Shown here: positions 7,829 to 53,942 of the stretch, piece by piece
Numbering within the stretch: position 1 is the stretch's first letter
Layout: every line of letters starts with the position of its first letter
NCBI GenBank assembly: GCA_017965425.1
Contig: JAGCPY010000094.1
Location: forward strand, 1 to 64,000
Length of the DNA: 64,000 nt
Direction: 5' to 3'
From: Bacteroidaceae bacterium
GTDB taxonomy: Bacteria > Bacteroidota > Bacteroidia > Bacteroidales > Bacteroidaceae
Notes under the pieces: model-generated
What the model saw: only the letters and a program-made list of their open reading frames with translations
Database searches by the model: none
What the model was told of the DNA's origin: nothing
Position numbers and translations under genes: made by a program

Positions 7829-7907
7829 AAAAAAACCTCAATCCCTCACCAATAGTTTGCTGATTAACAAGCCGATAAAGAAAAAGGTGAGAGATTGAGG
7901 CTTTTTT
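7829..7907. repeat. Palindromic element A (single minimal unit)
   Basis: An A-run is followed by the 15-nt arm CCTCAATCCCTCACC (7836-7850), a 35-nt spacer (7851-7885), the inverted arm GGTGAGAGATTGAGG (7886-7900) and a T-run. It is the one-unit form of the family found at 18662, 36932 and 53641. With A/T tracts on both sides it could terminate transcription in both directions, including that of the caspase operon. Confidence 0.85.
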
Positions 7908-7929
7908 GGCAAAAACATGGCGTAGGAGG

Positions 7930-9318
7930 CTATCTCAGCTTCAAACCATTCCAACTGTCGCTCATTTGCGGAGAGAACGACACGGATGGTGTCTGGGGCT
8001 TGTTGTTCACCACGGCCGACTTGCGGGTTACTTCCTTACGGATGTATTCGCTCAAGGTTCCATAGTCTATATCGCCTTTTGTTTCCTTGAGCTTCTTTAA
8101 GAGGAAATAGGTGAAGAGACCGTGTCCTTTCTCGGCATACGGGTAGGCCGTCTCGTCGCCCTGGGCAGCAGAGAATACCACCATGTTTCCAAGAGGTTGT
8201 TCTGTCTTGGCTTTGATGGCTACGCTGCGAGCGGAAACCAACATGCCGTCGCCACGGCGTGCGCCGCTGAAGCAGGCGTCCATGAAGAGGGTGACGCTCT
8301 TGGCATTGAGTGCGCCCAACTGTTTGTAGAGCGCGTCAAGGCTATAGGCTGCCTGCACGTCGTTGCCCGCCACATCTACCGGCAAGAGGAATCCTGCGCC
8401 GTCTTTCTCGTTGGGAATACCGTGGCCAGCGTAATAGATAATGATGCGCGCATCACCTTCATAAGCTTTTGCCACGCGGGTTGCCCAGTTCAGTTCGGTG
8501 GTCATCGCGCCCAAGGTGGCATCCTCAACGTAGTGAATGTTCTCGCCAGGAATGCCCAAGACGTTCTCGCAGTAGCGCCGCATGGCACGTCCGTCGTTCT
8601 GTGCACAAGCCACCTTGGCCACCTTTTTATAGTTCTCGTTGGCGATGATGACGGCAAAGGTCTCGCTGTTAGTGCCTGGGGACAGTGTGGGAATATCCAC
8701 ATCGACATCCGAAGTGGAAGCGTAGGCACTGGGTTCTCCGATGGTCTTGCGCTGAGCGACAGCCCCTGCCAGTTCCGGGTCGAGTTCATATTTCACCGTA
8801 ATCTTCTTGCTCTCGGAATAGAGGTCATTGCCCACCTGCATCCCCAAGGGCAGGGTCAGAGAGCGCAGTTTCGGGCAGTAGCCGAAGACACGATTGCCTA
8901 TTTGTGTGACCGAGGTTGGGATGACGATGCTGCTCACCGAAGAACGGAAGAACGCATAGTCCTCGATGGAGGTAATGGTTGACGGTATGACAATCTGGTC
9001 AACGTTGGAGAAGCCAGCAAAGGCACAACGGCCAATGGTGGTGATGGTATATTCCTTGCCGTTCTCCTCGTCTGAATACTTGGAAGGGATAATCACCGTG
9101 CGTACGGTCTCGTTGCCAAGATTCGCGAACTTACGTCTCTGGTCATACATCGGGTACTTGGCATCGTCGAGCTTATACTTATTGTCGCGAATGGCGGCAG
9201 TGTTGTCGTCGTCATTCAAGGTGATATTGAACCACGTCCCCTGTATCTCAATCTGTTGTTGGGCGAACAGCGTCTGGGCAATCAAGCCACAGAACAGAAT
9301 AATGGATAATCTTTTCAT
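7930..9318 (-). CDS. Secreted caspase-like (C14) protease with BspA-type leucine-rich repeats
   Basis: The 462-aa protein starts MKRLSIILFC with a signal peptide ending near LFAQ. Residues about 75-165 carry BspA-like leucine-rich repeats (IGRCAFAGFSNV, SIEDYAFFRSSV). From about 220 a caspase-family fold follows (FAVIIANENY), with the catalytic histidine in YYAGHG (near 299) and cysteine in DACFSG (near 348). The Asp immediately before the Cys dyad segment is typical of metacaspase-like C14 proteases, which cut after basic or acidic residues. I chose the ATG at 9318, 4 nt after the upstream stop, over one at 9339 inside that gene. It is the third gene of the AAA-barrel-caspase operon. Its substrates are unknown. 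Confidence 0.85.
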   Translation of the reverse strand: MKRLSIILFCGLIAQTLFAQQQIEIQGTWFNITLNDDDNTAAIRDNKYKLDDAKYPMYDQRRKFANLGNETVRTVIIPSKYSDEENGKEYTITTIGRCAFAGFSNVDQIVIPSTITSIEDYAFFRSSVSSIVIPTSVTQIGNRVFGYCPKLRSLTLPLGMQVGNDLYSESKKITVKYELDPELAGAVAQRKTIGEPSAYASTSDVDVDIPTLSPGTNSETFAVIIANENYKKVAKVACAQNDGRAMRRYCENVLGIPGENIHYVEDATLGAMTTELNWATRVAKAYEGDARIIIYYAGHGIPNEKDGAGFLLPVDVAGNDVQAAYSLDALYKQLGALNAKSVTLFMDACFSGARRGDGMLVSARSVAIKAKTEQPLGNMVVFSAAQGDETAYPYAEKGHGLFTYFLLKKLKETKGDIDYGTLSEYIRKEVTRKSAVVNNKPQTPSVSFSPQMSDSWNGLKLR

Positions 9319-9322
9319 CGTT

Positions 9323-9898
9323 TCAGAAGTTATATGCAAGACCTACACGGGCAATGAATAACCATCTGCCTTTGTGATTTCTGTACTCGTATGAGCCATT
9401 ATCATCATTTGAACATATTAGGCAACTCATTCCTGTTGCTTCCACTTGCATAGACAATGAGTGGCTGAGTCGGATGTCAAGACCTAAGCCGATGTTATAA
9501 TTGAAGCCATCATCGGAATAATAATCGCGATAGTAAGGATTAGTGCTACGAACTATTCTCTGCTCATAATAAACATATCCCAAACCTGCAATCAAATAGG
9601 GACGCACAGGACGAGGCGACGCAAAGAAAACATGACCATTCAAGAAAGCCTTGAACAAAGGACAGTTATATTCCTCTTTGTCCCCACCCGAATGGAATGC
9701 CTGATACTCCGCAGACGGTTCGATGCGGAAATAGTTGGAGATATTATAGTAATACTTCACGCCAATGCCTAAAGAGGTTGTGGAAGCACCTACGGCAAAC
9801 GGCACATTCACGCCCAAGCCACTCATGCCTTTCTGTGCAGAAACATCTGAGATGCTTGTTGCTGCCAAGAGCAGCGCTAATAAGATTTTCTTCATCAT
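9323..9898 (-). CDS. Outer-membrane beta-barrel protein (about 191 aa)
   Basis: A signal peptide (KKILLALLLAATSISDVSAQ) precedes a small barrel of alternating strands: VGASTTSLGIGVKYYYN, FRIEPSAEYQAF, VRPYLIAGLGYVYYEQ, NYNIGLGLDIRL, and a C-terminal LFIARVGLAYNF ending in phenylalanine, as expected for BAM substrates. The length fits an eight-stranded OmpA/OmpX-like or PF13505-type barrel. Two adjacent ATGs occur at 9898 and 9895. The gene lies 14 nt downstream of the AAA ATPase gene and 4 nt before the caspase-like gene, so it probably provides the outer-membrane component of that operon. Binding or pore activity is not evident. Confidence 0.8.
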   Translation of the reverse strand: MMKKILLALLLAATSISDVSAQKGMSGLGVNVPFAVGASTTSLGIGVKYYYNISNYFRIEPSAEYQAFHSGGDKEEYNCPLFKAFLNGHVFFASPRPVRPYLIAGLGYVYYEQRIVRSTNPYYRDYYSDDGFNYNIGLGLDIRLSHSLSMQVEATGMSCLICSNDDNGSYEYRNHKGRWLFIARVGLAYNF

Positions 9899-9912
9899 AG
9901 CAATATGTTTTT

Positions 9913-11100
9913 CTAATAGAGGAAGCCGAAGAGCCAGAGGGGAATGGCGTTGCCCCGACCGCGCTCAAGATTGGCTTGTGCATAGTAGACATCGGGCAAT
10001 GGACGCCGCACTTCGTCCATGCACACGCGGAAGCGGCGTCCGTCGACAAAGAAGGTACAGATGCGATCGCCGAAGCGTACGTCGTGGTAGGCCCAGAGGG
10101 CGTTCTGGAAGAAGGTTTCGGCCACGTCAATCTCCTCCATGCCGTTGGGATAGATGGCATACATGAGGTTGCTGTTGTGCATCATGATGCGTGCGGGCTT
10201 GCGCGGGAAGCCCTCGCCTTCGCGATAGATCATGTTGATGAGGCGTGCGTCTGAAAGGTATTTGATGTAGTTCATCACGGTGGCACGCGAGGTCTCAATA
10301 TCGAGAGCCAACTGACTGACATTGGGCGCAGAAGGTCGCTCGACGGCCAACAGATAGAGAAGTTTCTTGAGCTTGGTGAGGTACTTCAGTTCGATTTGCT
10401 TGATGAGGAGGATATCGACCTCAATCATCATGTTCATGGTCTTGAGCAGGTTCTCGCTGAAGTTACGTTTCTCGAGGAAGAAGGGGTAGAAGCCGTGGTG
10501 GAGGTAGCTCTGGAAGAAGTTGAGCGGATTGACGACGTCGAGAACTTCCGCGGCAATGCGTTCATGGTGGCGCAGGATGTCTCCGAGGGAATAGGCAGGG
10601 AACTGACAGCCAGTCTTCAGATTGAGAAATTCGCGGAAAGAGAAACCGCGGAGGTTGTAGCTGCTGACGAGTCCGTTCAGTTCTGGATTCTCTTCTTTGA
10701 GTCGCATGACAGAGGAACCCGTGAAGACGATTCGCAATCCCGAGTTCTCGTCGTGGCAGCGTCGTAGTTCATGGCTCCAGTTTGGCTGTTTGAAGACTTG
10801 ATCGATGAGCAACACCTCGCCTCCCTGCTGACGGAACTCCCGTGCGAAATCAGCCAGGCCCCGACCCTGGAAATAGAAGTTGTTCATATTGATGTAAAGA
10901 CACTTGCGGGTCCGCACATCAAAATTCTTCTTGGCATATTGCAGGAGAAAGGAGGTCTTGCCGACACCGCGTGTGCCCTTGATGCCGATGAGTGGCTGCT
11001 TCCAATCGATTTCGTCCATCAAGGCACGCCGGACAGGCAGGTCGGTATGCTCTACCAGATAAGCGTGTGTTCTGAAGAAAGATTCCATGTCAAGCTTCAT
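9913..11100 (-). CDS. AAA-family ATPase with DUF4143-like C-terminus
   Basis: The 395-aa protein has a Walker A motif GTRGVGKTS near residue 41 and a Walker B-like EVLLIDQV near 95. An arginine-bearing IVFTGSSVMRL follows, then a winged-helix-like region (VSQLALDIETSRATVMNYIK) and a C-terminal nuclease-like DUF4143 segment. This is the AAA_14/DUF4143 architecture common in Bacteroidetes. The family's function is poorly defined; archaeal relatives are sometimes linked to mobile DNA or toxin-like roles. The promoter at 11111-11141 precedes it, and it is the first gene of a three-gene operon with an outer-membrane barrel and a secreted caspase-like protease. The protein itself has no signal peptide. 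Confidence 0.8.
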   Translation of the reverse strand: MKLDMESFFRTHAYLVEHTDLPVRRALMDEIDWKQPLIGIKGTRGVGKTSFLLQYAKKNFDVRTRKCLYINMNNFYFQGRGLADFAREFRQQGGEVLLIDQVFKQPNWSHELRRCHDENSGLRIVFTGSSVMRLKEENPELNGLVSSYNLRGFSFREFLNLKTGCQFPAYSLGDILRHHERIAAEVLDVVNPLNFFQSYLHHGFYPFFLEKRNFSENLLKTMNMMIEVDILLIKQIELKYLTKLKKLLYLLAVERPSAPNVSQLALDIETSRATVMNYIKYLSDARLINMIYREGEGFPRKPARIMMHNSNLMYAIYPNGMEEIDVAETFFQNALWAYHDVRFGDRICTFFVDGRRFRVCMDEVRRPLPDVYYAQANLERGRGNAIPLWLFGFLY

Positions 11101-11110
11101 TTATCGGGGG

Positions 11111-11141
11111 CAAAAGTAGGCATAATTCACGAAAGTGCAAA
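11111..11141 (-). promoter_or_regulatory. Promoter of the AAA-barrel-caspase operon
   Basis: Minus-strand TTTG (11138-11141), 19 nt, then TACTTTTG (11111-11118). The -7 box is only 11 nt from the ATG at 11100, so the leader would be very short. Confidence 0.7.
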
Positions 11142-11165
11142 GTCTAGGATAGCAAAAAGAGACTT

Positions 11166-12248
11166 TTAGCCTTCATTTTTCTCAAAAACAGCTTTATAAT
11201 GCCCCCCAGAGGTGTCGATTTTGAAGATAGCGGTCTCTCCTTCCTTCAACTTTCGGGTGAGTTGGCAGGCCACCCAGCCCATTGTCGTTCGGAAATTGAG
11301 TTCGACAAGAGGGTGGATGAGGAATGAAGAATGAAGATTGAAGGATGAAGTATGAACCACCATCATGTCCACGCCGAGAGGGCCGGTGTACCACGCGGGA
11401 AGGTTGGCTGTGGAGAGGAGTTGGGCGAAACGGCTGGACAACTCACACAAGAGGGCGGGATGGACATAGCGTGCGAGGCGTTGCAGTTTCTCTTCCTCCG
11501 TGGCAACAAGGTTGCCGCTATAGACACCGCTGTCGGTGGTGGTGAAAATCGACAGACCTTCATAGCCGACACGACCGCCTTCGACCCAGAACTCCATTGC
11601 AAAATCCAGTTCTTTATCATAGAAAGGTTCGACCTCTACCCCGCCTTGACGGTTAAGAGTACGGCAAAGCCAGGAATGATCTACGGCAGAGACCCCGCTG
11701 TTTGAAAGAGAATGGGAGTGGGTTGCCATGATTTTCCGCACTCCACGTCCGCTGCCGCTCCAAGGCGCTTTGAGGATGGCCGTTCCGCCATAAGCGGCGA
11801 TGGCGGCCAAAGCGTCGTCCACGTTCTGACACCAGGTGGATTCACCGATGAGCGGACCGTCTGGTAAGAAAGCATCTGACCACGATTGGCGCAGACGAGC
11901 CAGCAGGTGTACAGCCGTCTGACGGGATGAACAGACACGGTAGGCTTCAAGCTGCTCCGCCGTTGGCAGATCCGACACCAAAACGCCAGCCTCTCTCAAA
12001 CAAGTCACGGCCAAAGGACTCCATCCCCAAGGGAAGGGGGTGGCATATATCTGTTGGGAGGAAGACATTTCTCTAATATGAGACTGGTCTTCTCCTGGAT
12101 GGAGAATGAGATCATCCTCCTTCGCCCACAGAGAAGGGAGGTCTGCAAGATCCATCGCCATCTGCCGAGCTGAAGCAGGTGGAGTGTAGTGAGGATCATT
12201 TGACGCCAACGCCAAATCGTTCCAAGGATTAAAAAAGAGCAGTCGCAT
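11166..12248 (-). CDS. ATP-grasp-like conserved hypothetical protein
   Basis: The 360-aa protein begins MRLLFFNPWNDLALA, a phrase I associate with a conserved Bacteroidetes family. The centre reads GTAILKAPWSGSGRGVRKI, resembling the phosphate-binding strand-loop of ATP-grasp ligases. Later GVDMM and VELNFRTTMGW resemble the metal- and ATP-binding EIN region. A peptide or amino-acid ligase activity is possible but unproven. Residues near 300-315 (SSFNLHSSFLIHP) are encoded by an ATGAAGA-type low-complexity stretch at 11315-11356 that looks inserted between GVDMMV and the ELNFR strand. It is divergent from the carboxyltransferase gene, with its own TATTTTTG box at 12274-12281. Confidence 0.65.
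   Translation of the reverse strand: MRLLFFNPWNDLALASNDPHYTPPASARQMAMDLADLPSLWAKEDDLILHPGEDQSHIREMSSSQQIYATPFPWGWSPLAVTCLREAGVLVSDLPTAEQLEAYRVCSSRQTAVHLLARLRQSWSDAFLPDGPLIGESTWCQNVDDALAAIAAYGGTAILKAPWSGSGRGVRKIMATHSHSLSNSGVSAVDHSWLCRTLNRQGGVEVEPFYDKELDFAMEFWVEGGRVGYEGLSIFTTTDSGVYSGNLVATEEEKLQRLARYVHPALLCELSSRFAQLLSTANLPAWYTGPLGVDMMVVHTSSFNLHSSFLIHPLVELNFRTTMGWVACQLTRKLKEGETAIFKIDTSGGHYKAVFEKNEG
11315..11356. repeat. Low-complexity ATGAAGA-type repeat inside a gene
   Basis: About six imperfect GAATGAAGA/GGATGAAG units run in tandem and are translated in frame within the ATP-grasp-like gene, adding about 14 residues beside the putative active-site strand. I recall similar tracts as common intergenic sequences in Bacteroidales. 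Confidence 0.5.
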
Positions 12249-12273
12249 GGGTGTTTCGGTGTCTTCTTGGATG

Positions 12274-12281
12274 CAAAAATA
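12274..12281 (-). promoter_or_regulatory. -7 promoter box for the ATP-grasp-like gene
   Basis: Minus-strand TATTTTTG about 26 nt before the ATG at 12248. No convincing -33 TTG was found at the expected distance. Confidence 0.45.
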
Positions 12282-12355
12282 GTGACTTTTTCCCGATAAT
12301 TCTTTTGTTCGATGATTTTTTCTTTATTTCTTCGTCGCGAATGCAAACTTTTTCT

Positions 12356-12363
12356 TACCTTTG
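12356..12363 (+). promoter_or_regulatory. -7 promoter box for the carboxyltransferase gene
   Basis: TACCTTTG, 41 nt before the ATG at 12405. The -33 region is T-rich but lacks a clear TTTG. Confidence 0.55.
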
Positions 12364-12404
12364 CCTCAAATTCTGAAGTAAACAATCACCTATAAATATA
12401 TACT

Positions 12405-14192
12405 ATGAAGAAAAAAATCCAATTCAGCCTGGTCTATCGCGACATGTGGCAGAGCTCAGGCAAATTCCAGCCGCGCAAAGATCAGCTGGAACGCATTGCA
12501 CCCGCCATCATTGACATGGGCGTTTTCGACCGCGTGGAAACCAATGGAGGTGCCTTCGAGCAAGTGAACCTGCTGGCTGGCGAGAACCCCAACGCCGCCG
12601 TGCGTGCCTTCTGCAAGCCGTTTAACGAAGTGGGCATCAAGACCCACATGCTCGACCGTGGCCTCAACGCCCTGCGCATGTACCCCGTACCAGATGACGT
12701 GCGTGAATTGCAATACAAAGTGAAGCACGCTCAGGGCGTGGACATCCCCCGTATCTTCTGCGGCCTAAACGACGTGCGGAACATCATTCCTTCGGTGAAA
12801 TGGGCTAAGGCTGCCGGCATGACGCCACAGGCGACGCTCTGCATCACCACTTCACCCGTGCACACCGTGGAGTACTACAGCAAAATCGCTGACCAAGTGA
12901 TTGCTGCCGGAGCCGAAGAAATCTGCCTGAAAGACATGGCTGGCATCGGACAGCCGGCTCTCCTTGGTGCACTGACGAAAGCCATCAAGACCAAACACCC
13001 CGATATCATTATCCAGTACCACGGACATAGCGGACCAGGACTCTCGATGGCTTCGATTCTCGAAGTCTGCAACAACGGCGCTGATGTCATCGATACCGCA
13101 ATCGAACCACTGAGCTGGGGTAAGGTGCATCCAGACATCATCAGCGTTCAATCGATGTTGAAGAACGAAGGTTTCGAGGTGAAAGAAATAAATATGAATG
13201 CGTACATGCGCGCGAGAGCACTGACACAGGAGTTCATTGACGACTGGCTGGGTTACTTCATCAACCCAGGCAACAAGTTGATGTCGTCTCTTCTACTCGG
13301 TTGCGGACTCCCTGGCGGCATGATGGGCAGCATGATGGCAGACTTGGCAGGCATACACGGGGTCATCAACAGTACGCTGAAAACCAAAGGCGAACCCGAA
13401 CTGTCAACGGACGATATCTTGGTGAAGCTGTTTGACGAGGTGGCTTACGTGTGGCCGCGTGTCGGCTATCCACCATTGGTGACGCCGTTCTCGCAGTACG
13501 TGAAGAACATCGCCCTGATGAACTTGCTCACCATGGCACAGGGCAAGGGACGCTTCGTGATGATGGACGACAGCATGTGGGGCATGATCCTCGGCAAGAG
13601 CGGCAAGATTCCCGGCACCATTGACCCTGAACTGAAGGAACTGGCGAAGAAGCAAGGCCGCGAGTTCACCGATGCCGACCCGCACACATTGCTGAAGAAT
13701 GCCCTGCCCGACTTCATCAAGGAAATGGAAGAGAACGGATGGGACCGTGGACAGGATGATGAGGAACTCTATGAGCTGGCCATGCACCCCGAACAATACC
13801 GCAACTACAAGAGCGGACAAGCCAAGAAGAACTTCCTTGCCGATTTGGAAAAAGCCAAGGTCGCCAAAGCACAAGCCACAGCCGGTCCCAAAATGTCTCT
13901 GGAAGAACTTTCCGCTTTCAAGCACGCCAAGGCTGATGCCGTCACGGCTCCCGAAAATGGGCAAGTGCTCTTCGAGGTTAGCGGTGATGCAGGCGTGACG
14001 CGCTGCACAGAGCCCGCCATCGGCACCATATATAAGGAAGGCGATACCATCTGCTACCTCCAAACACAGTATGGACAGCTGTTGCCCCTCACGGCTGGTC
14101 TTGGTGGCAAGCTCGTTGACATCACGGCTTTCCAAGGTAAGAAAGTCGTCAAGGGACAGGCCATCGCATGGTTGGAACGAAACGCCCTGTAA
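12405..14192 (+). CDS. oadA: Oxaloacetate decarboxylase alpha / pyruvate carboxylase B-like carboxyltransferase
   Basis: The 595-aa protein has a carboxyltransferase TIM barrel (RDMWQSSGKFQPRKDQL at the N-terminus, ICLKDMAGIG with the lysine expected to be carbamylated, and QYHGHSGPG supplying metal-ligand histidines). A PYC_OADA helical domain and a C-terminal biotinyl-like domain follow. The family moves CO2 between carboxybiotin and pyruvate/oxaloacetate. Oddly, where the biotinyl domain should read EAMKM this protein has LQTQYGQ, so the lysine that carries biotin appears absent. Either a separate carrier is used or the domain is structural. It lies 17 nt upstream of the receiver/PEP-synthase-like gene, suggesting co-regulation of the pyruvate/oxaloacetate/PEP node. 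Confidence 0.85.
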   Translation: MKKKIQFSLVYRDMWQSSGKFQPRKDQLERIAPAIIDMGVFDRVETNGGAFEQVNLLAGENPNAAVRAFCKPFNEVGIKTHMLDRGLNALRMYPVPDDVRELQYKVKHAQGVDIPRIFCGLNDVRNIIPSVKWAKAAGMTPQATLCITTSPVHTVEYYSKIADQVIAAGAEEICLKDMAGIGQPALLGALTKAIKTKHPDIIIQYHGHSGPGLSMASILEVCNNGADVIDTAIEPLSWGKVHPDIISVQSMLKNEGFEVKEINMNAYMRARALTQEFIDDWLGYFINPGNKLMSSLLLGCGLPGGMMGSMMADLAGIHGVINSTLKTKGEPELSTDDILVKLFDEVAYVWPRVGYPPLVTPFSQYVKNIALMNLLTMAQGKGRFVMMDDSMWGMILGKSGKIPGTIDPELKELAKKQGREFTDADPHTLLKNALPDFIKEMEENGWDRGQDDEELYELAMHPEQYRNYKSGQAKKNFLADLEKAKVAKAQATAGPKMSLEELSAFKHAKADAVTAPENGQVLFEVSGDAGVTRCTEPAIGTIYKEGDTICYLQTQYGQLLPLTAGLGGKLVDITAFQGKKVVKGQAIAWLERNAL

Positions 14193-14209
14193 ACTGACTG
14201 TCGCCGTCC

Positions 14210-17155: not shown

Positions 17156-17189
17156 ATTCATCCGTTTTGATGATTTTTATAGTTGTTTT

Positions 17190-17221
17190 TTTGTGTGAAA
17201 CCGATTTATTGCCTACCTTTG
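17190..17221 (+). promoter_or_regulatory. Strong promoter of the OmpA gene
   Basis: TTTG (17190-17193), 20 nt, TACCTTTG (17214-17221), with T-rich sequence upstream. The leader is about 50 nt. Confidence 0.8.
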
Positions 17222-18544: not shown

Positions 18545-18610
18545 GCAAACACGGTTTGCGTTGAAGATGCACACCTTCCTCATGTAAGGTGTACACCTTC
18601 CTTGCAGATG
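18545..18610. repeat. 22-bp tandem repeat array, three units
   Basis: Units at 18545-18566, 18567-18588 and 18589-18610 share nnnnACACnTT near the start and G(A/T)AAG near the end. The last has GTGTACACCTTC. It lies 52 nt left of palindromic element B, in the gap between convergent ompA and queA. The remainder of 18406-18544 has no gene I can support. Confidence 0.7.
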
Positions 18611-18661: not shown

Positions 18662-18891
18662 CCTCAATCCCTCACCTTTTACGTCATCAAGCTAAGAGAC
18701 AATGATTTACAGGTGAGGAATAGGTGAGGGATAAGTGAGGGATGGTGAGGAATTGAGTAGTTCTGCATCCTTCTTCGTGTTCTGCCCTTTCTTCAAGTAA
18801 TCCCTCACCATCCCTCACCTATTCCTCACCAAAGTCTCACCAATAGTTTGCTGATTAACAACTAAATAAAGAAAATGGTGAGAGATTTAGG
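18662..18891. repeat. Palindromic element B (two inverted units)
   Basis: The parts are: arm CCTCAATCCCTCACC 18662-18676; spacer of 35 nt 18677-18711; array of four GGTGAG-type boxes 18712-18752 (41 nt); centre 48 nt; inverted array 18801-18841 (41 nt); spacer of 35 nt 18842-18876; degenerate inverted arm GGTGAGAGATTTAGG 18877-18891. The right-hand spacer is nearly the same as that of element A (both start AATAGTTTGCTGATTAACAA). Confidence 0.85.
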
Positions 18892-36807: not shown

Positions 36808-36873
36808 GTGAAGACGAATCATGCGGAAGGTGAATACCTTCTGGGCGAAACGTGTACACCCTCCCATATCAAG
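36808..36873. repeat. 22-bp tandem repeat array, three units
   Basis: Units at 36808-36829, 36830-36851 and 36852-36873 begin GTGAAGAC, GTGAATACCTTC and GTGTACACC, and end GAAG, GAAAC and CAAG. The array lies between the divergent tRNA-Ala/nadK and pdxJ units, 59 nt left of element C. Confidence 0.7.
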
Positions 36874-36931: not shown

Positions 36932-37242
36932 AAAAAAAAGCCTCAATCCCTCACCAAGAGCGATAACAAACTAACTGATAAATATTTGCAGGTGAGGGAA
37001 TGGTGAGGGAATGGTGAGGGATGGTGAGGGAAGCGAAAATGAAGAAATGAAGAAACCTGACTGAATGTCTCATTTTAGCAGGTAATCGGGAAAACACTCT
37101 TCTATGGAGAATGAAGAGCAGCATAACACCGTAAAAAACCTCAATCCCTCACCATCCCTCACCATTCCCTCACCATTCCCTCACCTGCAAACGACTCATA
37201 AACAGCAAACTACCCTTCTTGGTGAGGGATTGAGGCTTTTTT
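36932..37242. repeat. Palindromic element C (two inverted units)
   Basis: The parts are: A-run; arm CCTCAATCCCTCACC 36941-36955; spacer of 35 nt 36956-36990; array of four GGTGAGGG boxes 36991-37031; centre of 113 nt; exact inverted array 37145-37185 (41 of 41 pair); spacer of 35 nt 37186-37220; inverted arm GGTGAGGGATTGAGG 37221-37235; T-run. The right array is itself preceded by AAAAAACCTCAA, so the right half reads as a complete unit like element A with four boxes instead of one. The centre contains a small CTCTTC/GAAGAG hairpin. Confidence 0.9.
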
Positions 37243-44754: not shown

Positions 44755-44780
44755 AAGAAAATCATTATTATACATAAACA

Positions 44781-46241: not shown

Positions 46242-46256
46242 ACTTTCATTCTCTTA

Positions 46257-46283
46257 CCTCGCGGTGTCCCCGCGAGGTTTTTT
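46257..46283 (+). terminator. Rho-independent terminator or attenuator after the DUF1080 gene
   Basis: An 8-bp stem CCTCGCGG/CCGCGAGG (46257-46264, 46270-46277) is followed by TTTTTT. It lies just 8 nt before the apparent ATG of the ApbE-like gene. Confidence 0.85.
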
Positions 46284-46291
46284 CTCCTCCA

Positions 46292-47068
46292 ATGCCACAT
46301 CTCTTTCGTCCAGCACACCCTGTCAACCGATACTACTCTTGGTTCTCCGCTCTCCACACCCGTGTGGACATGCTCCTTTTGGCTCAACTCTCTGAAGCAG
46401 AATTTGAAACCGCTGAAAATGCTGTGCATCAGGAACTTCATGCTGTGGAACGTATCGGCAACCGCTTTGACCAGAACAGTGAGCTATCCCAAGCGGTTCA
46501 ACTTGCCACTGTACATCCAGTTACAATCAGTCAAGAGCTCTATGCATTGTTGGAACGCAGCCTCCAAGCCAACCGAGACACCTGCGGTCTTTTCGACATC
46601 ACAGTCAACTCTCCCAACTTTCATCCTGGAATCATCAACGATGTCCAACTCATACCGTCCGCCAAAGGTGGCTCCCTCATCCTCAACCCCAACAACCCAT
46701 CCATCATTCTTGATCTCTCAGGCATCTTAAAAGGTTACACTCTTGAACGCCTGCGTATTCTTTTGCCTACATTTGGCATCCATGATGCACTCATTAACCT
46801 CGGCAACAGTTCCATCCTCTCCCTCGGCAACAATCCATCCGACATCCCCTCTGGTCACTGCCTCACCACCTCGGGCAACGCCACCCATCAACGTCAACAC
46901 ATCCGCAACCCACTGACCGGCAAGTTCATCACTGGACAACGACAAGTATCTGTTACGACGAAAAACGCCATCGACGGCGAGATTCTTTCCACCACACGTT
47001 TCATCCAATCTGCCAAGGAATCTACGTTGAATGAGTTTGGGATAAGATCTGCCACAGAAAAAGGTTAG
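46292..47068 (+). CDS. ApbE-like FAD:protein FMN transferase (divergent)
   Basis: The 258-aa protein resembles ApbE in order of motifs: VERIGNRFDQNSELSQ (the NPxSELS-type start), an ILDLSGILKGYTLERL segment (DLGGIAKGYAVD in standard members), LINLGNSSILSLG (NxGG-like), HIRNPLTGKF (the DPxTG-like motif) and NAIDGEILSTT near the end. ApbE attaches FMN to threonines of redox proteins outside the cytoplasm. Several motifs are altered (LSGIL, NLGNSS, RNPLTG) and no signal peptide is seen, so activity or export is uncertain. The ATG sits immediately after a terminator hairpin, so expression would depend on read-through or an unseen promoter. Confidence 0.7.
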   Translation: MPHLFRPAHPVNRYYSWFSALHTRVDMLLLAQLSEAEFETAENAVHQELHAVERIGNRFDQNSELSQAVQLATVHPVTISQELYALLERSLQANRDTCGLFDITVNSPNFHPGIINDVQLIPSAKGGSLILNPNNPSIILDLSGILKGYTLERLRILLPTFGIHDALINLGNSSILSLGNNPSDIPSGHCLTTSGNATHQRQHIRNPLTGKFITGQRQVSVTTKNAIDGEILSTTRFIQSAKESTLNEFGIRSATEKG

Positions 47069-47250
47069 TCACAACGTACACGAACGACTCGCGCAAGACT
47101 TTCTGCCAAAGAACAATTAGTAAATGAAACCTAACAAAATGATGTCGGTGAAAATATTTGTTCACAAACCATGTTCTGAAAATATCCCGAACTCATGCTA
47201 CCTTTTCATAAAATCCCAGTCCTTTAATGTTATTTAACTAATAGGGATGC

Positions 47251-47278
47251 TTGGTTTTAATCTTTCTTAGTACCTTTG
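47251..47278 (+). promoter_or_regulatory. Promoter of the LPP20-PEGA envelope operon
   Basis: TTGG (47251-47254), about 17 nt, TACCTTTG (47271-47278), 40 nt before the ATG at 47319. The gap 47069-47250 has no other feature I can support. Confidence 0.6.
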
Positions 47279-47318
47279 CCCACAAAATAGTGTTTTATAG
47301 AACATTTAACGAGGAAGA

Positions 47319-49256
47319 ATGATACCATTCAAATTCATTAAACGAGGATTGTCTGTATTGTTACTAACCGCTGCAAGTGCAATGGGTTATGGCCAGTCTA
47401 TCTCTCCCAAGGACTGGGAGAAAATCCAGCAAAACAGCAATTATCTCATTGGCATGGGTACGGCAGACAACCTTGACGATGCTCGGCAAATGGCGGAAAG
47501 CGACCTTGCCGGAAAGATTCAGACGAACGTGCAGAGCCGCTTCGACTATGTCATCAACCAGCAGAACAAAGGGAAACAAGTCAGCAGCGATGCCAAAATG
47601 AAGAACATCATCCGTTCCTATACGGCTGTGACGCTGAATAATGTCTCGGAATACATCGCCAAGCAAAAACCCAAGTTCGTCGTCTATCGCTATATCAAGA
47701 ACAGCGAAGTGCGTGCCATGTTCAAGCGCAGAATGGAAATGGCGAAGAAGTGGGCACGGGAAGCCGCAGAGCGAGAGAAAGAGCTGAAGATCGGCGACGC
47801 CCTGCAGGATTACTACTGGGCGTTGGCACTTCTGCGCAGTTGTCCCGACGGCGACCTGGAAGCCCTCGACGGCAACGAGAAAATGCTGCCCGAAGTGTTC
47901 AACCGCGTGAAGGACATTCTGGGGAAAGTGAAAGTCAACGCCGTCTCTTCAGAACAAAGCGGCAACCAGCAGCGTGTTACGCTGGAATTTACCTACGGTG
48001 GCCAGCCCACGACCAACTTCAACTACCGCCTCTGCAACGGAAAGACCGACGATCCCAAGAAGCCTTTCGACAGTTCATACAGCGGAGAAATCTACTCTGC
48101 CAAGGACGGCACGGGGGAACTGCTGCTGCCTGCCGGTGCCAAGCTTACGAGCCTGAAGGTGGTGGCTGAATACGAGTTCCGCGAGGAGGCTAATATCCAC
48201 CCGGAACTCAGCAGCGTGCTCGACTGCACCGACCCTGTCCCCTTCAACGCTGCCGTACTCAATGTTGACACCAAGAACTGCGCCACTAACAGCCAGTATG
48301 TGATGGAAATCGCCTCATCCGGCGGCAGCCGCAGAAGCAACGGCACTCCACAGCAGGCCCAACAGGCATCAAGTACCAGTTCTGCAAGCACCAACGCCGT
48401 CGGTGGCATCCTTACCCTGAATGCGCAGGAAGCTACGCCCTACATCAACACAATGAAAGCCATCGAACAAGGCATTTCACAGCGGAGCTACAGCGGCTTG
48501 CAAGGTCACTTCACGCCCGAAGGCTGGAAGATGTTCGAGAGTCTGATCAGCTATGGCGATGCCAAGCTGCTGCGTTCGCCGCAAGTGGAATTCAGCCGCG
48601 ACCGTGAACAGGTGGTCTGCCGCAGCTTCCCCATGAGCTTCACCTTCAAAGGCAACCGACGCACGTTCACTGAAGACGTGGTCTTCTACCTCGACGCACA
48701 GGCGAAGATCACGGAAGTAGCCTTCGGACTGGAACAGGCAGCCGTGAACGACATCCTCTGCCGCGACCAATGGAGCGCAGACGCACGCAACGTGATGGTC
48801 CACTTCCTCGAAACCTACAAGACTGCCTACGCCCTCAAGCGTTGGGACTATATCAATACCATCTTCTCCAACGAAGCCCTCATCATCACCGGCTCCGTCG
48901 TCAAGGCCACAGGCAAACAGGAGATGGGTCCCGCCAAGGTGCAGCACGTCAAGTACACCCGCCAGACCAAGGAAGAATATATGGCCAGTCTGAAACGATG
49001 TTTCCAGAGCAACGAGTACATCAACATCCATTTCGCCGACAACATCGTACGCCGCTCCAACAACAACCAGAACATCTACGGCATACAGATTAAACAAGAC
49101 TATTTCTCGTCCAGCTATGGCGACACTGGCTATCTCTTCTTGCTCATAGATTTTGCCGATCCCAATGCCCCGCTCATCCATGTCCGCACATGGCAACCCG
49201 ATAAAGACCCCAATGTGCGCGACGGACGCATCGGCATCACCGACTTCATGTTGTAA
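47319..49256 (+). CDS. Secreted LPP20-like protein with C-terminal NTF2-like region
   Basis: The 645-aa protein has a signal peptide (GLSVLLLTAASAMGYGQ). Residues about 30-150 (WEKIQQNSNYLIGMGTADNL, DDARQMAESDLAGKIQTNV) match the LPP20/FlgP-like fold in which a GxGxA turn precedes a helix of AxxxAxxxL type. A middle beta domain and a Ser/Gln/Ala-rich linker (near 345-365) lead to a C-terminal segment (about 490-640) with ALKRWDYINTIFSNEALIIT that looks like an NTF2-type fold. Such proteins are found in envelope complexes of Bacteroidetes, without a known reaction. It is the first gene of a four-gene operon. Confidence 0.75.
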   Translation: MIPFKFIKRGLSVLLLTAASAMGYGQSISPKDWEKIQQNSNYLIGMGTADNLDDARQMAESDLAGKIQTNVQSRFDYVINQQNKGKQVSSDAKMKNIIRSYTAVTLNNVSEYIAKQKPKFVVYRYIKNSEVRAMFKRRMEMAKKWAREAAEREKELKIGDALQDYYWALALLRSCPDGDLEALDGNEKMLPEVFNRVKDILGKVKVNAVSSEQSGNQQRVTLEFTYGGQPTTNFNYRLCNGKTDDPKKPFDSSYSGEIYSAKDGTGELLLPAGAKLTSLKVVAEYEFREEANIHPELSSVLDCTDPVPFNAAVLNVDTKNCATNSQYVMEIASSGGSRRSNGTPQQAQQASSTSSASTNAVGGILTLNAQEATPYINTMKAIEQGISQRSYSGLQGHFTPEGWKMFESLISYGDAKLLRSPQVEFSRDREQVVCRSFPMSFTFKGNRRTFTEDVVFYLDAQAKITEVAFGLEQAAVNDILCRDQWSADARNVMVHFLETYKTAYALKRWDYINTIFSNEALIITGSVVKATGKQEMGPAKVQHVKYTRQTKEEYMASLKRCFQSNEYINIHFADNIVRRSNNNQNIYGIQIKQDYFSSSYGDTGYLFLLIDFADPNAPLIHVRTWQPDKDPNVRDGRIGITDFML

Positions 49257-49280
49257 AGATCTTTAACACATTATAATCGT

Positions 49281-51038
49281 ATGAAAAGAACCATTTCCCG
49301 CCTCTGCGTTGCACTCCTTCTGGCTGTGCTCACTGGCATCACCGCCGATGCACAGAAGACTATGGACGTAGCCAAGTTTACCCGCATGGACAACGACCTT
49401 ATGGCCCGCGTCACCAAGCCTGTCCGAGACAAGGACGAAGGCAAGCTCTGTGCCCTCATCCGTGTCGTCACCACCCTGCCCTCGCTGGAATTCCGTGCAG
49501 ACGCTCTCGGCATCGTACAACAGGAAAAGCACGGCGGCGAAGTGTGGCTCTATGTGCCATACGGAGCCAAGAGTCTCTCTTTCTCCCACGAAGGCTACTT
49601 CCCCCTCCTCTACCAATATGCTCTGCCCATTGAGGAAGGTACGGTTTATCAGTTACAACTCGCCAGCTACGAAACTCCGACTCAAGGTTCTACACAACAG
49701 ACCAACACTCAGATGTTCGTACTCACTCACACCCCCGAGGAGGCTACCGTCTATATCGACGGCATGAACGTCCCCACCGAGAACGGCATCTTCTCTGCCA
49801 TGATGAGCAAAGGCGAACACACTTATAAAGTGGAAGCAGACCAATATGAAGAAACCGAAGGTACCTTCGTCCTAGACGACCAGCCCGTCCGCGAGACCAT
49901 CAACCTTCAGCCTCTCTTCGCCACCATTCAGCTCTACACATTACCTGAAAACGACTTCAACATCTCGCTCAACGGCCGCTTCGTCGGCACCTCACCTTAC
50001 AAGAGCGAACGTCTGGAAGCCGGCAGCTACCGCATCCACATCGAAAAAGACAAATATTATCCCATCGATACTCTTGTGCGTCTGCGCGAAGGCGACAATG
50101 TGGAACTCACCTGCAAGCTCACCTCCTTTGCAGACAGCCTCTTCTACAACCGCGAACTTGGCGGCCACCGCTTCTCCTTCGGTGTCAACGTCGGCTACCT
50201 GATGCCGTTCGTCAGTTCCAATGCCGGAGGCGGTTTCACGGGCAGCCCCATCAACTATGCACTGGGCAATAGTCAGGAAAACGTGGATTATTCCTCGCAA
50301 TCAGGTTTTTCCGCCGGCATCATGGTCGATTACAAGCTCTACAAGAACTTCTACCTCATGGCTGGTGTCAGCTACTCACAATACAGCTGGAGCAATAGCT
50401 TTAACCAAAAACTCACCGACCATACAGTATTGACTACGACAACCGAAGTGTGGAAAGGCGACATGGAAAATAGTTATAAAGAACGCTACACCCTCCGCAC
50501 CATAGAGATTCCCATTCTTGCCTCCTATCGCTTCGTGCTCACCAAGACAAGTAGCCTCCATCTGAACCTCGGTCCTTATTTCCAATATGGTCTTTCAGCC
50601 AATATGAACCTTTCCGGCTCTTCAGAAAGCAAAGGAACCGTTTACAATCGTATAGGAAACACATTAGGGGCAGCAATGAGTTCTTTCACCGATGTATCGC
50701 ACCTTGATTCGGACTTCGACCTCTACGGCAAGGAGTTCACGTTCCAACGCACGAACGAAAATGGAGCCACTTACGGTTTGGAAGAACGCTTCACCAGAAG
50801 CGACTCTCCTTACAAACGCTTCAACCTTGGATTGCGCGCGGCAGTTGCCTACGAGCTGCGCGGCTTCCAACTGAGCTTAGGCTACAACCTGCAGCTGACC
50901 AACTCTGCCAACACCAGTTTCTGGGAAAGCGAGCGCATCCCCATTTTCAACGGCAAAGATGGCGAGAACCACATGAGCGGGTACAAGCACCGTGTGCATT
51001 CGCTCGAAGTACGCTTAGGATATTTCTTCCGCTACTAA
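49281..51038 (+). CDS. PEGA-domain protein with outer-membrane barrel
   Basis: In this 585-aa protein a signal peptide (LCVALLLAVLTGITADAQ) precedes an N-terminal region. Two PEGA-type repeats follow, at about residues 155-205 (ATVYIDGMNVPTENGIF) and 212-275 (NDFNISLNGRFVGTSPYKS, then LEAGSYRIHIEKDKY). The C-terminal 290 residues are a beta-barrel (HRFSFGVNVGYLMPF, FYLMAGVSYSQYSW, SSLHLNLGPYFQYGL) ending in LEVRLGYFFRY, an aromatic C-terminus for barrel insertion. The PEGA units usually bind cell wall or form surface stalks. It probably sits in the outer membrane as the partner of the upstream LPP20-like protein. Confidence 0.8.
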   Translation: MKRTISRLCVALLLAVLTGITADAQKTMDVAKFTRMDNDLMARVTKPVRDKDEGKLCALIRVVTTLPSLEFRADALGIVQQEKHGGEVWLYVPYGAKSLSFSHEGYFPLLYQYALPIEEGTVYQLQLASYETPTQGSTQQTNTQMFVLTHTPEEATVYIDGMNVPTENGIFSAMMSKGEHTYKVEADQYEETEGTFVLDDQPVRETINLQPLFATIQLYTLPENDFNISLNGRFVGTSPYKSERLEAGSYRIHIEKDKYYPIDTLVRLREGDNVELTCKLTSFADSLFYNRELGGHRFSFGVNVGYLMPFVSSNAGGGFTGSPINYALGNSQENVDYSSQSGFSAGIMVDYKLYKNFYLMAGVSYSQYSWSNSFNQKLTDHTVLTTTTEVWKGDMENSYKERYTLRTIEIPILASYRFVLTKTSSLHLNLGPYFQYGLSANMNLSGSSESKGTVYNRIGNTLGAAMSSFTDVSHLDSDFDLYGKEFTFQRTNENGATYGLEERFTRSDSPYKRFNLGLRAAVAYELRGFQLSLGYNLQLTNSANTSFWESERIPIFNGKDGENHMSGYKHRVHSLEVRLGYFFRY

Positions 51039-51071
51039 CATTATTATTTACCCTATACAACTTATTCGACT

Positions 51072-52457
51072 ATGAAACGTATTCAAAAATTCTCCCTGCT
51101 AGCACTTACTTTGCTGGCCACCATTGCCTTCACAGGATGTAAGGATGATGACATTCTTCTCAACTCCTCTCCTACTCCAAACCCTGGCCCTAACCCTAAC
51201 CCTGCACAGACCTCCGAGCTCGTTGGCGAATGGCTTGAAGACTTGAGCGACGGCAACCAAATCATCATGTCCACCTCAGAATTCACGTCCGATGGGAAAT
51301 ACAAGTCATGGGCTGCCATCATCATGCCTGGAACCAATATCTACGGAACAGAAGAAGGTACCTATACTTATTCTGGAAACACCATTAAGGTGAACTACAA
51401 GAGTATGCTGACTGGCCAGATGATCAATTCTGAATTTACTGTGCAAAAGTTGGATGCCTATACGCTCAACTGGACACAAACCGAGGGCAGTGTCTCCACA
51501 CGTCGTATCATTGGCACCTACAACATGGCCGTGGGCGAAAGTAAGGCATTTGCCTTTGACGATGCCAACTTCGTACCTTCCAGCTACAAGTCCTGCGACG
51601 AGAAAGTGGCCACCGTCAGTGCCACAGGCACCATCCAAGCCGTCAAGCGCGGCACCACCTTCATCCGCGTGACTGCACCCGTGGGCGAAGTGGCTGTCAG
51701 GGTCGTTGTCACCGACGAGAACCACGCCGTTGACGACTATGTGCAGTACGCCGCTGGCTCCGTAGAGGACGTAAAAGCATACTATGGCACTCCCAGCTAC
51801 GCAGGGGTCATGTCTTCAAATGGAAAACAGGTTATTTCCTATGACCTCAACGATGATATGATTAACTCCATTACCTTCTACTATAACCGAAGCAACCATA
51901 TCTATTATATTCTCGCCATGTTCCAGGAAGGTGCCGACATCGCACCCGTCATTGCTGAGTTCGACAAGAAATACGAGAAGCGTACTGCAAAAGACGAGAC
52001 CTACCACATCTACAAGACAAAAGTGGATGGCGAGACATTGACCATCGCCATTGACGAGGAATTCCGCTCTATCACCTACATTTTCCAGGATCCATTTGAG
52101 GATATTGACGGCCTATACCGTCTTGATGCCGAGCACCTGGCAAAAGCTGTAGGCCATGAGTTCAACAATGAAGAAGATGATGGAAATTTCAGCGGCTACA
52201 TCGAAGATAACGAATACTTCTCCAATGTCCTCGTAAGGTATGATCCAGAAACTTTGGCCGTACAAGCTCTTATGTTTTATGCACAAGAAGGCTTTACTCA
52301 GGAAGAAATAGAAGAGTGGTATAAGAAAAACTACATCTACAATGAACAGACGGGATATTACCTGACCACAGATAATATGCTGACCTCTGAATGCATGATC
52401 AAAGTATCGACCAATGCAAATACAGGACGCGTCACCGTCACGTACATGAAAAGATAA
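51072..52457 (+). CDS. Surface or periplasmic lipoprotein with lipocalin-like and Ig-like (BIG_2) domains
   Basis: The 461-aa protein has a lipoprotein signal (LLATIAFTGCKDDD, lipobox TGC near residue 22), followed by an acidic DDD and a proline-rich PTPNPGPNPNPAQ linker. Aspartates after the cysteine match the surface-export signal described in Bacteroidetes. Residues about 50-150 resemble a lipocalin-like beta sheet (LVGEWLEDLSDGNQI); about 155-225 form a BIG_2-like domain (SCDEKVATVSATGTIQAVKR, GTTFIRVTAPVG). The rest has two similar alpha-beta segments. It has no recognised enzyme motif. It is the third gene of the envelope operon, 6 nt before a related lipoprotein. Confidence 0.75.
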   Translation: MKRIQKFSLLALTLLATIAFTGCKDDDILLNSSPTPNPGPNPNPAQTSELVGEWLEDLSDGNQIIMSTSEFTSDGKYKSWAAIIMPGTNIYGTEEGTYTYSGNTIKVNYKSMLTGQMINSEFTVQKLDAYTLNWTQTEGSVSTRRIIGTYNMAVGESKAFAFDDANFVPSSYKSCDEKVATVSATGTIQAVKRGTTFIRVTAPVGEVAVRVVVTDENHAVDDYVQYAAGSVEDVKAYYGTPSYAGVMSSNGKQVISYDLNDDMINSITFYYNRSNHIYYILAMFQEGADIAPVIAEFDKKYEKRTAKDETYHIYKTKVDGETLTIAIDEEFRSITYIFQDPFEDIDGLYRLDAEHLAKAVGHEFNNEEDDGNFSGYIEDNEYFSNVLVRYDPETLAVQALMFYAQEGFTQEEIEEWYKKNYIYNEQTGYYLTTDNMLTSECMIKVSTNANTGRVTVTYMKR

Positions 52458-52463
52458 TCACTG

Positions 52464-53444
52464 ATGAAAAAGACACTTATCCTTCTGGCTGCTGCACTTA
52501 CATGGGTTGCATGTGGCTCTGACCCTGTTGAGGAAGAAGTCACCATCAATGAATCTTCATTCTACGGCGAATGGGTAACCTTCAACATGGAAGGTGACTA
52601 CGCAACGGACATCGTCTTAAAAAATACGCGTCAGCTCACCACTACCACCTATACAGGTATCTCCACCAACGCTGTCGTAAACAATGAGGACGTGGGACCC
52701 TGGGTATATTATCCAGATAACAAAGTACTTAGAATTACTCCCACCCATGAACTTGCTATAGACTACTCTGTGGTGGAGATGAGTGCAAACATGATGAAGC
52801 TGCGCAACCGAGACCTGAATCTCACAGAGACCTACTATCGTATCGTTGAGACGCAAGATGTCGATGCAGGTCAGAGAATCAGCATCCAATGGCTGGCACA
52901 ACACACCGACTTCGAGGTGCAAAGCATCACGTCAAGCAACCAGTACGGCCTGTCTGTATCAGGACAAGAGATCTATGCCGGGACACGTGCAGGACTCGTC
53001 TTTGTCACACTCAGTTCCAACAAGGAAACGGTGGTGGTGAAACTCAATGTCAGTTCGCGTATCACCAAATTCACTGCCGAAGTACTATTCGACATTGACA
53101 CAATCATTGCTACGCATGGAACACCTGACGCAACGGAGGAGGGTGAGCAGACAAGCTACATAGCTTACCACCAGTCCTCTTTTGATGACGGCCTCAACAT
53201 CATTCAATACAAATATGATGTGAACACTCGCGAGGTGACACGCATAGATATCGTTTACAAGACACCCGAAGGCTTCAAGGCAGATGAGAATGACGTGAAA
53301 TCAACCTATGTTATGTTCGCAAACAACATCTATGGACTGAAGCAAAAGGCAATAGAAAACAAATTTATCATCTCACCTAACAACGAAAACAACATTATGA
53401 CTTTCGGGAACTACACCTATTTCCTTAAGAACGATCACTTCTAA
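52464..53444 (+). CDS. Lipoprotein related to the preceding gene (326 aa)
   Basis: A lipobox-type signal (ILLAAALTWVACGSDPVEEE) directs lipidation at the cysteine near residue 17, again followed by acidic residues. The mature part has a lipocalin-like start (FYGEWVTFNMEGDYATD) and an Ig-like strand set (QYGLSVSGQEIYAGTRAGLV, FVTLSSNKETVVVKLNVSS). It ends with an alpha-beta module (FDIDTIIATHGTPDATEEG, IQYKYDVNTREVTRIDIVY) that matches the corresponding part of the upstream lipoprotein. The two probably arose by duplication. It is the last gene of the operon and is followed by a strong terminator. Confidence 0.72.
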   Translation: MKKTLILLAAALTWVACGSDPVEEEVTINESSFYGEWVTFNMEGDYATDIVLKNTRQLTTTTYTGISTNAVVNNEDVGPWVYYPDNKVLRITPTHELAIDYSVVEMSANMMKLRNRDLNLTETYYRIVETQDVDAGQRISIQWLAQHTDFEVQSITSSNQYGLSVSGQEIYAGTRAGLVFVTLSSNKETVVVKLNVSSRITKFTAEVLFDIDTIIATHGTPDATEEGEQTSYIAYHQSSFDDGLNIIQYKYDVNTREVTRIDIVYKTPEGFKADENDVKSTYVMFANNIYGLKQKAIENKFIISPNNENNIMTFGNYTYFLKNDHF

Positions 53445-53470
53445 GAGGCTTTAATAGGATAACCACATTG

Positions 53471-53510
53471 ACTTCCCATCCAGTGTTTTGCTGAATGGGA
53501 AGTTTTTTAT
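53471..53510 (+). terminator. Rho-independent terminator of the envelope operon
   Basis: Stem ACTTCCCAT-CAG and CTG-ATGGGAAGT is followed by six T, 26 nt after the last stop. Confidence 0.88.
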
Positions 53511-53511
53511 T

Positions 53512-53599
53512 GTGTACATGTTCAGCACGGAAGGTGTACACGTTCAGCCTGGAAGGTGTACACGTTCCGCATGATTTGTATGAACGTTGTAGCCGACTT
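53512..53599. repeat. 22-bp tandem repeat array, three clear units plus a partial
   Basis: Units at 53512-53533, 53534-53555 and 53556-53577 begin GTGTACATGTTC, GTGTACACGTTC and GTGTACACGTTC; the first two end GGAAG. A decayed fourth (53578-53599) begins GTATGAACGTT. It follows the operon terminator directly and lies 46 nt left of element D. Confidence 0.85.
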
Positions 53600-53640
53600 G
53601 GCAGAGAATACCACACTCCTCACTATGTGTTATCATTGAA

Positions 53641-53942
53641 AAATCCCTCAATCTCTCACCTTTTTGGTTAAGTGGCTATCCAACAGAACTTTACGGGTGA
53701 GAGATGGGTGAGACTTCGGTGAGGGATGGTGAGGGATTATCGGAAATAAGGCTTCGTGAATGTAGGATTATACCCCTTTGTGTGGCCGAAAAACGGCCCT
53801 CGCGGCCATACACAGGGGTATGGCCCTACAGAGGATGCAGTAATCCCTCACCATCCCTCACCGAAGTCTCACCCATCTCTCACCCGTAAAGCTCTGTTGG
53901 ATAGCCACTTAACCAAAAAGGTGAGGGATTGAGGTTTTTTTT
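53641..53942. repeat. Palindromic element D (two near-identical inverted units)
   Basis: The parts are: arm CCTCAATCTCTCACC 53646-53660; spacer of 35 nt 53661-53695; four-box GGTGAG array 53696-53736; centre of 107 nt; exact inverted array 53844-53884; spacer 53885-53919, complementary to the left one at 33 of 35 positions; arm GGTGAGGGATTGAGG 53920-53934; T-run. The total inverted repeat is about 91 bp per side. The centre is also palindromic (TGTAGG...CCTACA, with ATACCCC/GGGGTAT and GTGTGGCCG/CGGCCATAC arms, 53761-53830). Confidence 0.93.

Follow-up and report, generated by a model that had tools for sequence, protein, structure and literature searches.

The closest described counterparts of the palindromic elements reported here are found in mobile islands, in a plasmid centromere and among dispersed chromosomal repeats. 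The elements occupy four intergenic sites in a 64,000-nt stretch of DNA from a Bacteroidaceae bacterium (assembly GCA_017965425.1, contig JAGCPY010000094.1, positions 1 to 64,000; the whole stretch is called the window below). Staphylococcal pathogenicity islands (SaPIs) are phage-inducible islands with integrase and packaging genes. The parC centromere of plasmid R1 is a single partition locus with a ParM/ParR operon, in which 11-bp iterons lie on both sides of a ∼39-bp core; similarly, phased iterons flank a core in our elements. According to the available sections of the papers cited here and below, the Rep helicases of SaPIs use a C-terminal domain to bind iterons that lie just downstream of the rep gene, apparently as two hexamers (PMC7581432), and ATPase domains of the VirE/VapE type, when fused to primases, have been predicted to act as replication helicases in mobile elements (PMC5862659). 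The nearest described repeat, by description, is PINSR of Prevotella intermedia, a lineage-specific intergenic repeat of 188 bp with 177–184 copies and no coding sequence (PMC4755523). PINSR resembles our family in its Prevotella-type host, intergenic position, high copy number and length of ∼190 bp, compared by description only, but unlike our family it is reported without terminal inverted repeats, and the available sections name no partner gene for it (PMC4755523). REPIN/RAYT and TIR/TIRYT systems are also dispersed inverted repeats of species-specific sequence that sometimes flank their partner gene, and REPs carry GTAG or CGTC tags; their partner is an HUH tyrosine transposase, whereas the partner here is a helicase (PMC3733652).

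Each half-unit of our elements runs, from outside to inside, through an A-tract, an arm (CCTCAATCCCTCACC), 35 nt and GGTGAG boxes at steps of 11, 11 and 10 nt. We lean, with moderate confidence, towards the view that the palindromes are gene-less derivatives of a VapE-encoding element, comparable to miniature inverted-repeat transposable elements (MITEs), and that each half is a site of the cognate helicase. Three observations support this view: VapE genes are bracketed by halves, the box letters are shared within each of three genomes, and the layout stays constant while its letters differ from species to species. In the host genome and in genomes G019 and G279, and on one side in G173, copies without a gene have the same ends as a gene-bearing copy, which agrees with the suggestion of a first-pass annotation of this DNA that the family could be a MITE. 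The partner of these copies is a VapE-like helicase rather than the transposase expected of a MITE.

The gene-bearing copy of the host genome lies on the contig of the window (C94:92408-93601) and encodes a 397-residue protein with a VapE-like domain (PF05272) and DUF3874 (Pfam E-value 3.8e-28). The two halves that bracket the gene (left, L065:9035-9122; right, L065:10608-10695) have the letters of the window sites and align with them in register, and a pair of 22-nt-step palindromes lies just upstream of it. At L065:9000-9130, the left half overlaps the 3′ end of the upstream open reading frame (ORF), which ends in a VNMILGKK-like stretch; thus the element seems to supply the stop codon of this ORF. 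In G019, a 756-residue VapE gene lies between two sites with the GGTGACG letters of that species. Two halves enclose a VapE gene in G279, and both their boxes and a GTCTCAnnnnTGAGAC array with a 22-nt step recur in the dispersed copies of that genome, while in G173 the box letters match the VapE locus on one side only. A similar arrangement is found in Bacteroides finegoldii (NZ_OY725909.1), where a BT4734/BF3469 gene has inverted TGACAATA boxes on both sides.

These copies share two features with SaPIs. First, among solved structures VapE is closest to 7pds, which is listed as ‘Similar to D. nodosus vapE’ (E-value 5.6e-18); this places the protein in the same broad family of initiator helicases as SaPI Rep/VapE (PMC7581432). 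Second, a VapE/D5-type AAA+ helicase is encoded beside the repeats (in C94, G019 and G279), just as short direct-repeat iterons, which the C-terminal domain reads, adjoin the SaPI gene (PMC7581432). The copies differ from SaPIs in that the sites lie on both flanks of the gene, as inverted 11-nt-phased arrays round a core of ∼35 nt together with an array of 22-nt-step palindromes, and in that more than 100 gene-less copies appear in the chromosome. Moreover, instead of the integrase and packaging genes of a phage-inducible island, the three clear gene-bearing copies (host, G019 and G279) each have a single ORF of at least 100 residues, and no integrase, between their halves.

We considered 84 VapE places in 23 Bacteroidales genomes in which an element-like place had been seen, with 0–9 VapE domains per genome. 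Of these, 42 were fetched with wide flanks and the best 20 by E-value were scored first, the score being the number of 8-mers in the left 700 nt with a complement in the right 700 nt. A score of at least 20 was obtained for 6/20 of these loci and for 0/457 control genes, and a score of at least 10 for 8/20 and 5/457, respectively, with two loci that had shortened left flanks (L303 and L312) counted as misses. The six loci with scores of at least 20 come from G295, G244, G520, G179 and, twice, G234; the strong loci are flanked by halves of the arm-core-box plan, for instance with the letters AGGTAGGTGT and GGGTAAGTG, and the five highest scores all belong to proteins of 406–416 residues. Of 17 other genomes, three had dispersed copies whose letters matched a fetched VapE locus (G019, G279 and one side of G173), a comparison to which the word of G520 is too short to contribute. 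Short-palindrome arrays lie 5′ of 7/39 VapE genes compared to 9/457 controls at a score of 13, and 3′ of 1/39; among periods of 17–26, the 5′ arrays have only 22 nt (five genes) and 21 nt (two genes). Four genes at contig ends (L312, L319, L324 and L326) were left out of the array test. Genes for HU-type DNA-binding proteins adjoin VapE genes at L338 and L340, where they are annotated, and at L294 and L313, by our own reading of the translated start.

The same plan with different letters is found in other genomes. GGTGA at 11-nt steps matched 15 of 139 genomes of the genus (here and in the counts below, the host genome is included), but the reversed pattern matched nine, and therefore single matches prove little. 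By reading individual places, we found the layout with other letters in G362, G019, G015, G468, G504 and G454. The letters of G362, GGTGACGAGAG, occur at 23 places with no control match, and the 20 regions fetched point to a recent-looking expansion with near-identical cores. A letter-free core pattern, CACC-N8-TA-N5-YTG-N6-A-N5-TT-N3/4-GGTG, which covers only cores of 35 or 36 nt, matched 7/139 genomes of the genus with no control match, and 14/399 genomes of the family, from 9/30 genera, with two control matches. Three of the 14 (G157, G267 and G165) are doubtful; in G157 and G267 the core match lies near a VapE gene, but the arms are not complementary. The boxes form distinct families, with GGTGAAGG in G173, GGTGAAAGA in G263, GGTGACAGG in G396 and GGTGTAGGA in G234. 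Among 19 cores picked without the core motif, ten have YTG-N5-(C/A)AR, compared to 1.9 expected; these halves came from 12 of 18 loci, the other six giving none. The core length between box words is 35 nt in G173, G234 and G311 and 36–39 nt elsewhere, with 26 nt in one hairpin at L150. Thus the fixed spacer length that was proposed from the window holds inside this species, while other genomes mostly have 35–39 nt and stay close to 35 nt rather than varying widely. A search for a phage or plasmid source by DNA similarity gave no match for window positions 53620-53950, and viral contigs had no match to the arm pattern and one unrelated-looking match to four boxes.

Several results weigh against the association with VapE. 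The link was first noticed by screening neighbouring proteins, where VapE-like proteins are the sole family found in more than two genomes, two of its four (G157 and G267) being doubtful; because VapE genes are frequent, recurrence among neighbours carries little weight taken alone. The 20-locus score is not independent, since all 20 loci had already been scanned in a shorter form, and three of the six strong loci (G179 and both from G234) are related and belong to one genus. Among 20 further VapE loci, none scored at least 20 and two scored at least 10, both from the 14 not previously scanned, and 30 of all 40 scored loci are below 10. Thus, only some VapE genes have strong boxes on both sides, although the score is blunt, giving only 6 to the G279 gene that is clear by eye. 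In 14 of the 17 other genomes, we found no matching letters at a VapE locus (38 of the 84 places, in draft assemblies), and of five named records tested only that of B. finegoldii was positive. The excess of 5′ arrays varies with the threshold, at 14/39 versus 34/457 for scores of at least 12 and 3/39 versus 3/457 for scores of at least 15. In the host genome, the C94 protein has lost both Walker A glycines relative to its relatives and may be inactive because of this degenerate Walker A, and a second VapE-like gene (L291:2727-4895 on contig C80; 723 residues) has no arms in the 8 kb fetched; thus, neither gene stands out as the current driver in this genome. Finally, no target-site duplication was found in 13 copies from the 20 G362 regions or in 45 copies of the host, all compared with approximate boundaries.

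In a different explanation, REPIN-like or MITE-like elements are moved by a classical transposase or an HUH enzyme, and VapE is a passenger or an independent system with similar repeats. The elements resemble REPINs in being numerous, intergenic and paired in inverted orientation, most scored VapE loci lack a two-sided signal, and we know of no helicase-only mechanism of transposition, a point that we count for this explanation. The host genome does contain two Y1 transposase genes, but repeats of a different family (GCCCTGAAAGGGCAAAAGC / GCCCAGGGC..GCCCTGGGC) surround one of them, and there are no arms close to the other. Neither Y1 (HUH) gene is flanked by the repeat as a RAYT gene can be; one has an element ∼370 nt away, on one side. 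We rejected the Y1 transposase as the driver since it belongs to another repeat family. With VapE genes having the same ends in several genomes, and VapE-like proteins being the recurrent neighbour family in the screen described above, we regard movement by a transposase as unlikely, but as an explanation to be taken seriously.

If the palindromes do derive from a VapE-encoding element, its gene-bearing form would encode one protein, a VapE-like AAA+ helicase that may or may not have a BT4734-like primase domain at its N terminus. The boxes would be iterons on one face of the helix, given their 11-nt step, and the core would be a palindromic stretch that is bent or melted, as in the iteron origins of SaPI-type Rep helicases. 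Because VapE relatives are predicted replication helicases and SaPI Rep binds iterons, each half may be read as a VapE site and probably as an origin; inverted phased arrays round a core of ∼35 nt would suit two facing hexamers. We infer that VapE binds the boxes, that replication starts there and that the extra copies arose through replication, with the steps leading from binding to copying and insertion equally conjectural. To our knowledge, no cognate site is known for VapE/BT4734-type proteins, although Bacteroidales genomes commonly encode them. More tentatively, and as a possibility that we would not yet call probable, the family may represent a new kind of mobile element in bacteria, namely a minimal replicon-transposon. 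Such an element would spread via a single origin-binding helicase(-primase) and origin-like ends, which combine 11-nt-phased iterons round a palindromic core with an array of 22-nt-step palindromes; its iteron code would be rewritten in each species in step with the helicase, and it would have left more than 100 gene-less origin copies in one chromosome. The constant layout with swapped letters would provide natural pairs of helicase and site, and the code linking the two is directly testable. If copies spread by replication initiation and not by a transposase, DNA would have a new route of multiplication within bacterial chromosomes, one that could also explain repeats confined to single Prevotella lineages, PINSR for instance.

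The size and anatomy of the family were examined in the host genome, a 3.73-Mb draft of 96 contigs that is 95% complete; the nearest named relatives of one window protein are in rumen Prevotellaceae/Bacteroidaceae assemblies, at ∼79–80% identity. A 14-nt arm pattern, CTCAATCYCTCACC, has 233 exact matches and 308 with at most one mismatch in this genome, compared to 0 for the reversed pattern, and no exact match in 60 relatives, 36 of them in the same genus. Because a full element has two arms, the 233 matches suggest a family of somewhat more than 100 copies, a size estimated from arm matches. In the fetched stretches, GGTGAG lies exactly 35 nt past 160 of 209 arm-like matches (at most two mismatches), and 40 of the other 49 have it at 46 or 67 nt, the match there being to an inner box and not to an arm. 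This genome has 235 triple boxes with 11-nt steps, and of 398 other genomes of the family only 2 have any.

We compared 114 outer halves chosen by an arm with at most two mismatches and GGTGAG at 35 nt, a choice that partly imposes the conservation of arm and first box and that misses copies with worse arms. The conservation of the arm is real, since matches drop from 233 exact to 75 with one mismatch. The 35-nt spacer and boxes 2–4 were not used in the choice. The spacer is conserved at T9 A10, Y16 T17 G18, A25 and T31 T32 R33 C34, and thus forms a core with a weak palindrome, TA..YTG-N5-CAR..TTR, about position 21, the remaining positions being nearly free. Boxes 2–4 keep GGTGAG in phase, at 86–100% per position, and beyond the arm the outer tips consist of a T-tract, four free bases and an A-tract. 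Among 44 two-sided elements (of 46 long ones), five have pairs of cores that are identical at 32–35 of 35 positions, but the mean core identity is 18.5/35 within an element versus 16.8 between elements, and left and right cores from different elements share at most 29/35. The box letters, most clearly those of box 2, also agree better between the two halves of one element than between halves of different elements. Therefore the boxes are kept while the cores drift at a fixed length, and arms and boxes appear to be held in this genome by continued binding or purifying selection.

Boxes 2–4 kept at 86–100% per position beside cores at background identity, with no more than 29/35 shared between elements, would also fit host-domesticated chromosomal binding sites for chromosome organisation or replication control, vertically kept and with letters that co-evolve with a DNA-binding protein. 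However, species within a single genus range from more than 100 copies to only a few or no detected ones, the expansion in G362 looks recent, and an element is missing from its orthologous gap. The first-pass annotation had proposed a comparison of such gaps. The genes around the element at 36941-37235 stay adjacent in 2 of 80 relative loci (L074 and L086), where the distance from tRNA-Ala to the next gene is 150–224 nt, compared to ∼800 nt in the window; reading these gaps by eye, we found that both the element and its palindrome array are missing from each of the two. We consequently consider domesticated sites quite improbable.

We also considered whether the palindromes are bidirectional transcription terminators or a structured RNA family, as the first-pass annotation had raised. 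They have A/T-tract borders, the short form in the window (7836..7900) folds as a single long stem (-25.4 kcal/mol, z -5.4), and convergent genes flank 22 of the 59 classified elements, but divergent genes flank 11 of the 59, both being raw counts. A first box of the GGTGAGACTTT type, unable to pair with the arm, is present in ∼1/5 of the 114 halves, and the phasing of the boxes is kept; this fits recognition in double-stranded DNA better than a hairpin RNA and speaks against a structured RNA as the main function. The proposed protein-binding site fares better, as the phased boxes appear to behave like double-stranded sites for a protein. Termination may be an effect of the short form, given its stem, but it needs neither four phased boxes nor a palindromic core. 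Rfam at gathering thresholds matched only two tRNAs in the whole window, and at E-values up to 5 gave three weak matches in 53500-54000, far below family thresholds. With no Rfam match above threshold and the stem broken in part of the copies, we rejected an RNA family, and we think it very improbable that terminators or RNA explain these elements. The openly licensed literature yielded no description of this repeat and no paper linking VapE genes to such repeats, in line with the earlier impression of an unrecognised family.

Re-checking the window confirmed the four palindromic sites where they had been placed, and 15-nt-arm matches with at most three mismatches number 22, compared to 1.82 ± 1.46 in 100 shuffles (largest 6). 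The short-form element, which has no strand, consists of an arm (7836-7850), a 35-nt core (7851-7885) and an inverted arm (7886-7900), flanked by A- and T-tracts. Each of the other three sites has a left half on the plus strand and a right half on the minus strand. The second site has its left half at 18662..18752 (arm 18662-18676, core 18677-18711, four boxes 18712-18752) and its right half at 18801..18891 (boxes 18801-18841, core 18842-18876, arm 18877-18891). In the third, the left half lies at 36941..37031 (arm 36941-36955, core 36956-36990, boxes 36991-37031) and the right half at 37145..37235 (boxes 37145-37185, core 37186-37220, arm 37221-37235). The fourth comprises a left half at 53646..53736 (arm 53646-53660, core 53661-53695, boxes 53696-53736) and a right half at 53844..53934 (boxes 53844-53884, core 53885-53919, arm 53920-53934), the two cores being identical at 34 of 35 positions. 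Thus all four sites follow one plan as had been claimed, with a spacer of exactly 35 nt in all seven half-units and 41-nt arrays of four GGTGAG boxes at steps of 11, 11 and 10 nt.

An array of short palindromes without strand lies near each of the four sites. Two 16-bp palindromes (GAAGGTACGCACGTTC and GAAGGTCTATACCTTC) with a 22-nt step lie at 7741..7778, arrays of two units with the same step lie at 18563..18600 and at 36826..36863 (the latter missing along with its element from the orthologous gap in both relatives that keep gene order), and two GAAGGTGTACACGTTC palindromes with a 22-nt step lie at 53530..53567. A lone GAACGTCTATACCTTC palindrome (at most three mismatches) is found at window position 59170, with no element within 5 kb. 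Across the genome, 46 of 65 elements have a GTGTACAC-like palindrome within 160 nt on one side only, four have it on both sides and 15 on neither. The full unit, GAASGTGTACACSTTC, has 77 exact sites in this genome and 0 in 60 relatives, and 68 of 72 short steps are 22 nt, two being 44 and two 21. An intergenic GTGTACAC array with a 22-nt step but no adjoining palindromic element is found at L064:12225-12307. Other genomes have short-palindrome arrays with letters of their own and a 22-nt step (GTCTCAnnnnTGAGAC in G279, GTCCCAnnnnTGGGAC in G499, TCCC-n6-GGGA in G015 and GTCCC-n5-GGGAC in G244) or a 21-nt step (G396 and G234), while the patterns tried gave no such series in G173, G179 and G295. 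Records from Parabacteroides and Bacteroides also show, by eye, 22-nt-step arrays of short palindromes upstream of BT4734/VapE genes (L337:1100-1513, L339:1130-1580 and L340:1910-2362).

The second repeat family (GCCCTGAAAGGGCAAAAGC, GCCCAGGGC..GCCCTGGGC) flanks a Y1 transposase gene of the host genome at L146 (contig C21, ∼57193-60531). By eye, repeats of the GCCCTGAAAGGGCAAAAGC family also sit in the middle of some long elements (L010, L046, L060 and L063).

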